This document shows, piece after piece, positions 54,065-55,373 of a stretch of 64,000 bases of DNA (position 1 is its first letter; each line of letters opens with the position of its first letter). The notes beneath the pieces were generated by a model that did no database searches, was not told the DNA's origin, and was given only the letters and a program-made list of their open reading frames with translations. A program made the translations under genes and the position numbers. The DNA is from Planctomycetota bacterium (GTDB lineage: Bacteria > Planctomycetota > PUPC01 > JACPCR01). The DNA lies in the NCBI GenBank assembly GCA_027625095.1, contig JAQBXN010000025.1:1-64000 (forward strand), read 5' to 3'.

Positions 54065-54147
54065 CCACTACTTGCCCAGTGGAGCTTCACGTTTTTCTCT
54101 CGCGCAAGATGCGCTTGATTCCCAGATGCCACTGGCTTGCCCAGTGG
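54065..54147. repeat. Two REP-like hairpins upstream of the Y1 transposase-like gene
   Basis: CCACTACTTGCCCAGTGG (54065-54082) and CCACTGGCTTGCCCAGTGG (54129-54147), each followed by AGCTTCACGTTTTTCTCT. Confidence 0.95.
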
Positions 54148-54178
54148 AGCTTCACGTTTTTCTCTAAGCTCAGCACAG

Positions 54179-55039
54179 ATGTTAAGACCGTACAAAATCG
54201 ACGATCTGAATTTCGGTTGGGTTTACCACGTGTATCTCCGCTGGAAGACTCATCGACGCCAAACTCTGCCTGCAATGAATTCCATTCCTCTTTCAACTGT
54301 TCAAGAAATAGGAGGCATGTTCGACATTGCAATTCTTGGCGCCGACAGCAACGAAACAGATGTCCTTCTGACCGGAAGACTAAATCCAAGAGAATCCGAT
54401 TCAGCTTTTGCGAGTAAGTTCAAGGGCAAGATCAGCAAGTATATCCGTGAAGAAATGGACTCAGGCGCACCGGAGAAATTGTTGAGCCGGGGATACTTCG
54501 CCTGCAGCGTAGGCAAAAACACTCGGAGGGACATCGAACAATACCTGACAACACAGGCGGAACACCATGGGATCGAAATCTCACCTGATGCACCATCGAG
54601 CATCCGAGAACAAGACGCAGATGAAGAGACGCTTAGAGATCGTTTACAGCCGAAACACGCGATGGCTGTGGTTCAGTTTCACATTGTTCTTTCCGCCCGG
54701 AAACGGACAAACGTTTTTGATAAGACCGTGGCTGAAGCTTTGGTGGATTTCTGGTTCAAATCCAGCGCCGAAGAGAACTGGTTCTTGAGGAAGGTTTCGG
54801 TATTGCCGGAGCACGTCCACTTGGCAGTACGAGCGCATCCATCAGTGAGTCCTGCCGAAATAGTCGTGCGACTCAAGAATTCTTCGCAGGAAATGTTATT
54901 CCGAGATTTCCGCGATGAAGTGGTCGCCAGGAAGTTGAGTCAGATCTGGAATCCCGGTGCTTATATCGGCTCCTATGGAGACATTACATCACAAAGCGTG
55001 CTCAAGTACATTCAAGATTGGGAGTCGGGCGATGAGTAA
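54179..55039 (+). CDS. RAYT/IS200-like Y1 HUH protein with two apparent Y1_Tnp domains
   Basis: Domain 1: WVYHVYLRWKTHRRQTLP...GADSNETDVLLTG...KFKGKISKYIREE...LLSRGYFACSVG...IEQYLTTQAEHHG; Domain 2: VVQFHIVLSARKR...LPEHVHLAVRA...WNPGAYIGSYGDITSQSVLKYIQDW; ATG at 54179 inside the listed ORF. Confidence 0.82.
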   Translation: MLRPYKIDDLNFGWVYHVYLRWKTHRRQTLPAMNSIPLSTVQEIGGMFDIAILGADSNETDVLLTGRLNPRESDSAFASKFKGKISKYIREEMDSGAPEKLLSRGYFACSVGKNTRRDIEQYLTTQAEHHGIEISPDAPSSIREQDADEETLRDRLQPKHAMAVVQFHIVLSARKRTNVFDKTVAEALVDFWFKSSAEENWFLRKVSVLPEHVHLAVRAHPSVSPAEIVVRLKNSSQEMLFRDFRDEVVARKLSQIWNPGAYIGSYGDITSQSVLKYIQDWESGDE

Positions 55040-55064
55040 TCTGAATTATTGCTATCTTCAGATG

Positions 55065-55373
55065 CCACTGGCTTGCCCAGTGGAGAAATCACGTTCTTTT
55101 CTCGCGTTGGATCGGAAGAAACATGAGATGCCACTGGCTTGCCCAGTGGAGTTTCACGCCTTGTTTGCTGAGGGACTCAGACAGCTCCCAAATACGAACA
55201 TCTGTAGAGCAGGCAGAAGTCATGCTCTATCTGGCCTGCCGACTCAGGAACGGAACGTGAGCCCCCCGCGAGAAAAGATCGTGAGACTCCACCGGGCAAG
55301 CCGGTGGCATCTTGGGTCGCGTCCCAATCGATCGCGAGAGAAAAGCGTGAATCTCCACTGGGCGAGCCAGTGG
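55065..55373. repeat. Four REP-like hairpins downstream: two direct, two inverted
   Basis: 55065-55083 and 55131-55149 CCACTGGCTTGCCCAGTGG; 55289-55307 CCACCGGGCAAGCCGGTGG; 55355-55373 CCACTGGGCGAGCCAGTGG. Confidence 0.95.

Follow-up and report, generated by a model that had tools for sequence, protein, structure and literature searches.

The window, a 64,000-nucleotide stretch of a Planctomycetota bacterium genome (contig JAQBXN010000025.1), contains an intact gene on the plus strand (54179..55039) for a 286-amino-acid protein in which Pfam and NCBIfam searches identify two Y1 domains in tandem. The Pfam Y1_Tnp model matches the protein in two stretches (98.8 bits), and the NCBIfam IS200 model NF033573 scores 116.5 bits against a cut-off of 55. 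The N-terminal domain (54221..54556, plus strand) is without an HUH motif and keeps Tyr122 (54542-54544) and the +4 glutamine, Gln126 (54554-54556). The C-terminal domain (54671..55018, plus strand) keeps the HUH motif as HVH, with His212 (54812-54814) and His214 (54818-54820). It retains a tyrosine as well, Tyr277, yet the residue at +4 is Trp rather than Gln. We also found other Y1-like sequences in the same genome, L038 (G000 C189:63820-64155) and L036; one has a degenerate HUH and no Tyr, and one has an internal stop.

Six hairpins of one family, here called A, surround the gene, as a first-pass annotation of this DNA had claimed. Two are direct and upstream: A1, which is degenerate (CCACTACTTGCCCAGTGG; 54065..54082, plus strand), and, 65 bp further on, A2 (CCACTGG-CTTGC-CCAGTGG with the foot GATG; 54129..54147, plus strand). 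Downstream are two more direct copies 66 bp apart, A3 (55065..55083) and A4 (55131..55149), both on the plus strand, and two inverted copies on the minus strand, also 66 bp apart: A5 (55289..55307), with the stem CCACCGG, and A6 (55355..55373), with the minus-strand loop CTCGC. The gene thus has two direct hairpins before it and two direct plus two inverted ones after it. The A3-A6 block (55055..55382) resembles a REPIN, as noted earlier: a single strand of it is predicted to fold into one long double hairpin. Inverted copies also occur in units dispersed elsewhere in the genome, and most of these units are composites bounded by terminal inverted repeats (TIRs).

With up to 3 mismatches allowed, a 25-mer of family A, GATGCCACTGGCTTGCCCAGTGGAG, matches the 8.95-Mb genome at 50 places, and a reversed control gives 0, so the hairpins are not a product of chance. 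A degenerate version of the pattern finds 56 places. These counts are lower bounds because contigs break at the repeats (G000 ends C51, C54, C93, and C179). The copies are clustered at about 27-28 places, in direct and inverted orientation, and are nearly all intergenic: 25 of 28 arrays are free of overlap with an ORF of 200 or more amino acids; the expected number of covered arrays is about 22. Among 22 related genomes, the degenerate pattern has one match with 3 mismatches (in the bin G001) and none in the other 21. The repeats are therefore present well beyond the locus and essentially absent from the relatives, two points on which the proposal of a REP-like family had been made to depend. 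Being intergenic hairpins in direct and inverted clusters that are tied to a Y1 gene, the A repeats are supported as REP-like.

Other parts of the first description were narrowed by the 56 copies. The loop is conserved (CTTGC in 49 of them) and the 5′ foot is GATG in 53. The compensatory change in the stem is real and is confined to stem pair 5 (TA 28, CG 17, TG 6, CA 4, AT 1); the six other pairs hardly vary. The tail said to extend beyond the stem can be recognized as AGttTcacg.tt.t, with loose conservation across the genome.

Most of the dispersed A copies sit in elements with the terminal inverted repeat GGGGACTGTC... The arrays (L074-L099) hold one to four A hairpins, with 67 bp between direct copies and 74 bp to an inverted copy, and are bounded by the TIR GGGGACTGTYGRTTTAAT. 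At about 25 of 29 outer ends, as we read them, the element ends in the loop of half of a hairpin of a second family, B (GACCCC...CTT| or TTCACC...CAA|). L079 and L097 each contain the two halves of a single B hairpin together with a 2-bp TT/AA repeat, as expected for insertion into the B loop. The window contains two B hairpins on the minus strand, at 59008..59036 (GACCCCTGCCGC-CTTGC-GCGGCAGGTGAA, with the same loop as A) and at 59076..59104, 68 bp away. Further copies are at L087:2954, L095:3136, L095:5837, and L077:188, and a palindromic repeat, CCCAATACTGTTCAGTTAAG, encloses B hairpins, forming nested repeats (L110:1480-1560, the flanks of L076, and L098:1183). The B hairpins resemble those adjoining the double-Y1 genes of G001 and L065; no gene belonging to family B was found in the genome of the window.

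The scattered A units thus seem to belong to an element that has TIRs at its ends and targets the loops of B hairpins, and since the A copies lie inside these composites, their spread need not be the work of the double-Y1 gene. The A hairpins could be passengers of a MITE-like element moved by another transposase that targets B loops, with the fused Y1 protein being a local, perhaps domesticated, hairpin binder that does not mobilize them. The TIR boundaries, the B half-hairpins at the outer ends, and the two clean cases all suit this explanation, as does the double-Y1 locus of the window, which is without a TIR. IS elements that insert in REPs are already known (PMC1525189). The explanation meets two difficulties. 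No autonomous element with the GGGGACTG TIR was found, the lone end at L098 being a remnant without a transposase. In addition, REP units fused to other palindromes have been reported to form TIRs around genes for tyrosine transposases (PMC3733652), and a TIR is therefore compatible with a Y1 enzyme. We regard the passenger explanation as rather unlikely, while giving it real weight.

A scan of genome contigs with the window protein as a single sequence gave no relatives. An alignment-based scan of genome contigs found seven, making a family of eight with the window protein. Five are from Planctomycetota: two bins that share the class of the window genome (G001 and G004), a Schlesneria, a Pirellulaceae bin, and Rhodopirellula solitaria. 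The others are from a “PVC group” bin and a Puniceicoccaceae bin (Verrucomicrobiota). The tandem proteins are 260-289 amino acids long, and the relatives share 19-25% identity with that of the window. Such genes are rare: 3 of 392 genomes of the phylum have one, each in the class of the window genome, and only one tandem copy was found per genome. Viral contigs yielded no tandem double-Y1 gene, just an ordinary TnpA/TnpB locus.

The catalytic residues are divided between the domains in the same way throughout the family. In the alignment, Tyr122 and Gln126 of the N-domain and His212 and His214 of the C-domain (window numbering) are invariant in all eight proteins. None of the eight N-domains has an HUH, so the catalytic histidines are confined to the C-domain; a Tyr with a +4 Gln is found in the N-domain only (8/8). 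The terminal Tyr of the C-domain is gone in seven, the window protein being the exception. When solved single-domain TnpA chains (2f4f, 2ec2, and 2xm3) are aligned to the family, the HUH half aligns with the C-domain and the Tyr half with the N-domain. According to Quentin et al. (PMC6006769), TnpA_IS200 is dimeric and the +4 glutamine (Q131 of IS608) is the third metal ligand.

AlphaFold predicts two successive Y1 folds for the Schlesneria relative (pLDDT 86.6, pTM 0.86), and the Foldseek matches are IS200/IS605 TnpA proteins, among them 2ec2, 2xm3, and 2vih. The model of the window protein was poor (pLDDT 53.7) and was not used for geometry because the confidence was too low. In the tree, the C-domains form one group (87/86). 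A common origin of the N-domains, and of the fusion, is neither established nor rejected (p-AU 0.23), and the window protein stands out as an outlier by its very long N-domain branch. The residues and folds fit a single-chain pseudo-dimer with one predicted composite active site. We found no description of tandem, fused, or two-domain Y1 or RAYT proteins in the non-subscription literature searched. Quentin et al. dropped proteins of unexpected length, which they took for fusions or misannotations (PMC6006769), and the tandem family may therefore have gone unnoticed.

Hairpins flank all eight double-Y1 genes. At most loci they occur in pairs spaced 61-77 bp, direct upstream and inverted downstream. 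The stems vary by species (CCACTGG, CCATCCGG, CCATCGGC, CCTGCCGG, CCGGG, and others; those at L067 are bulged), and the loop CT[C/T]G[C/T] is common to seven of the eight loci. The exception is G001, where the upstream loops are TTCAC and the downstream loop is a shorter CTTG. We counted 32 hairpins with the CTYGY loop across about 5.8 kb of gene flanks, against 5 across 91 kb outside the flanks. Of those upstream, 15 are on the plus strand and 1 on the minus; of those downstream, 11 are on the minus and 5 on the plus. The Rhodopirellula solitaria gene has a 180-bp hairpin block duplicated on both sides (L069:2593-2772 and 3753-3932) with 96% identity, a sign of recent activity.

GC-rich intergenic hairpins might also serve in transcription termination or RNA processing and have no connection with the gene. 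The terminator explanation does not account for hairpins with the same loop beside seven of eight diverged homologues (the eighth has different ones), nor for the direct-upstream and inverted-downstream arrangement, the regular 61-77-bp spacing, and the clusters at about 27 places. We rejected it because the hairpin layout is conserved across homologous loci, and consider it very improbable.

The link between gene and repeats across relatives, which the first-pass annotation had proposed as a check, is mixed. G001 has the gene, and an exact-pattern search that allowed a gap and so covered the 21-nt form found its hairpins at the gene locus only, besides one likely chance match. G003 has about nine CTYGC-loop hairpins like those of G004 (L100-L103), and no tandem gene was detected there at E<=1e-10; this assembly is 89% complete in 1,140 contigs, and the gene may lie in a gap at repeats.

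The gene had been taken for a RAYT, with the hairpins as a canonical REP system (TnpA_REP class 2), and a Y1 gene with REP-like repeats at its flanks and in intergenic positions elsewhere does recall one. That identification does not stand: the NCBIfam RAYT model NF047646 gives the window protein 20.5 bits against a cut-off of 80, and its relatives at most 21.7. Moreover, the protein has two domains, not one, with a split site and the IS200-type Tyr-+4-Gln motif, and the GTAG foot is absent. A canonical RAYT system therefore has hardly any probability left.

We consider it probable that the locus is a REPtron-like system whose transposase has a new architecture, a pseudo-dimer with a composite site that spreads or maintains hairpin blocks. 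The C-domain would provide the HUH histidines and the N-domain the nucleophilic tyrosine and the +4 glutamine as metal ligand. Together, the two domains would form one composite site, the counterpart of a single trans site in an IS608-type dimer, which has two. We predict that the protein recognizes single-stranded hairpins with a CTTGC-type loop and that the unit it processes is marked by hairpin pairs with a spacing of about 65 bp, in direct orientation on one flank and inverted on the opposite one. The enzyme may nick beside the hairpin through a 5′-phosphotyrosine and then rejoin the strands, and the hairpin blocks would be spread or maintained in trans. Weighing against the REPtron-like reading are the locus-only hairpins of G001, the G003 hairpins with no detected gene, the TIR-bounded dispersed copies, and the outlier position of the window protein.

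A broader possibility, which we put forward tentatively and with less confidence than the REPtron-like reading, is that these genes represent an undescribed class of repeat-associated transposases in the PVC group. Such a protein would have arisen by fusion of a Y1 dimer and decay of one of its sites, with the HUH of the C-domain and the Tyr-Gln of the N-domain left as the single composite site, and would have evolved together with paired hairpins of the CTTGC-loop type. The two domains may each hold one member of a ~65-bp pair, making the protein an asymmetric, one-cut enzyme that disseminates hairpin blocks.

IS200/IS605 transposases are dimeric enzymes with two active sites, and the E. coli RAYT appears to be monomeric (PMC6006769). 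The route from IS to REPtron is an open question. A natural single-chain dimer with a composite site would be an independent path to an enzyme that has one site and is linked to repeated hairpins. Because the halves of the predicted site are in different domains, single mutants can test trans catalysis directly. The loop is kept while the stems change, so hairpin recognition can be tested by swapping stems and loops across species.

The TIRtrons and their TIRYT proteins (PMC3733652) resemble the dispersed elements in having TIRs that consist of degenerate REP units and other palindromes and are repeated in the genome. The TIRYT proteins all keep the HUH and the Tyr. The TIR found here (GGGGACTG) is unlike the TIRtron GGGGWSAS motif and is absent from the flanks of the gene.

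The TnpA_Y1 class 3 proteins of Quentin et al. 2018 (PMC6006769) occur in Planctomycetes and have a Tyr...Gln motif near that of class 1. Several unusual hairpins flank their genes and can be repeated in the genome. Class 3 proteins are single-domain, about 178 amino acids long, with an NHVH motif and a CnGA foot, whereas those described here are tandem, 260-289 amino acids long, and associated with other feet (GATG in the window).

The IS200/IS605 TnpA proteins (IS608, ISDra2, and the Sulfolobus structures 2f4f and 2ec2) share the Y1 fold, the HUH, the Tyr with a +4 Gln, and hairpin ends, and the active sites of their dimers would match the composite site proposed here. They are homodimers in which each protomer has both the HUH and the Tyr-+4-Gln; here, one chain has a single complete site, split between the C- and N-domains in all eight proteins. 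The short hairpins are dispersed repeats here, and one tandem copy per genome was found, in contrast to IS200/IS605.

REPtrons (RAYT/TnpA_REP with REP, BIME, or REPIN sequences) are alike in having a hairpin-flanked Y1 gene, intergenic copies, and direct and inverted clusters. A RAYT has a single HUH-Y core domain. The window protein differs in its two fused Y1_Tnp domains with a split site and IS200-type Tyr-+4-Gln, and in scoring below the RAYT cut-off. The foot is GATG where REPtrons have GTAG, and the direct pairs are regular, at about 66 bp. One RAYT trait is present, flanking palindromes that are repeated genome-wide between genes (50-56 copies, control 0). The system, as we read it, is one that works like a REPtron, with a protein that is outside the RAYT family on the tests made and an architecture new to the literature we searched.
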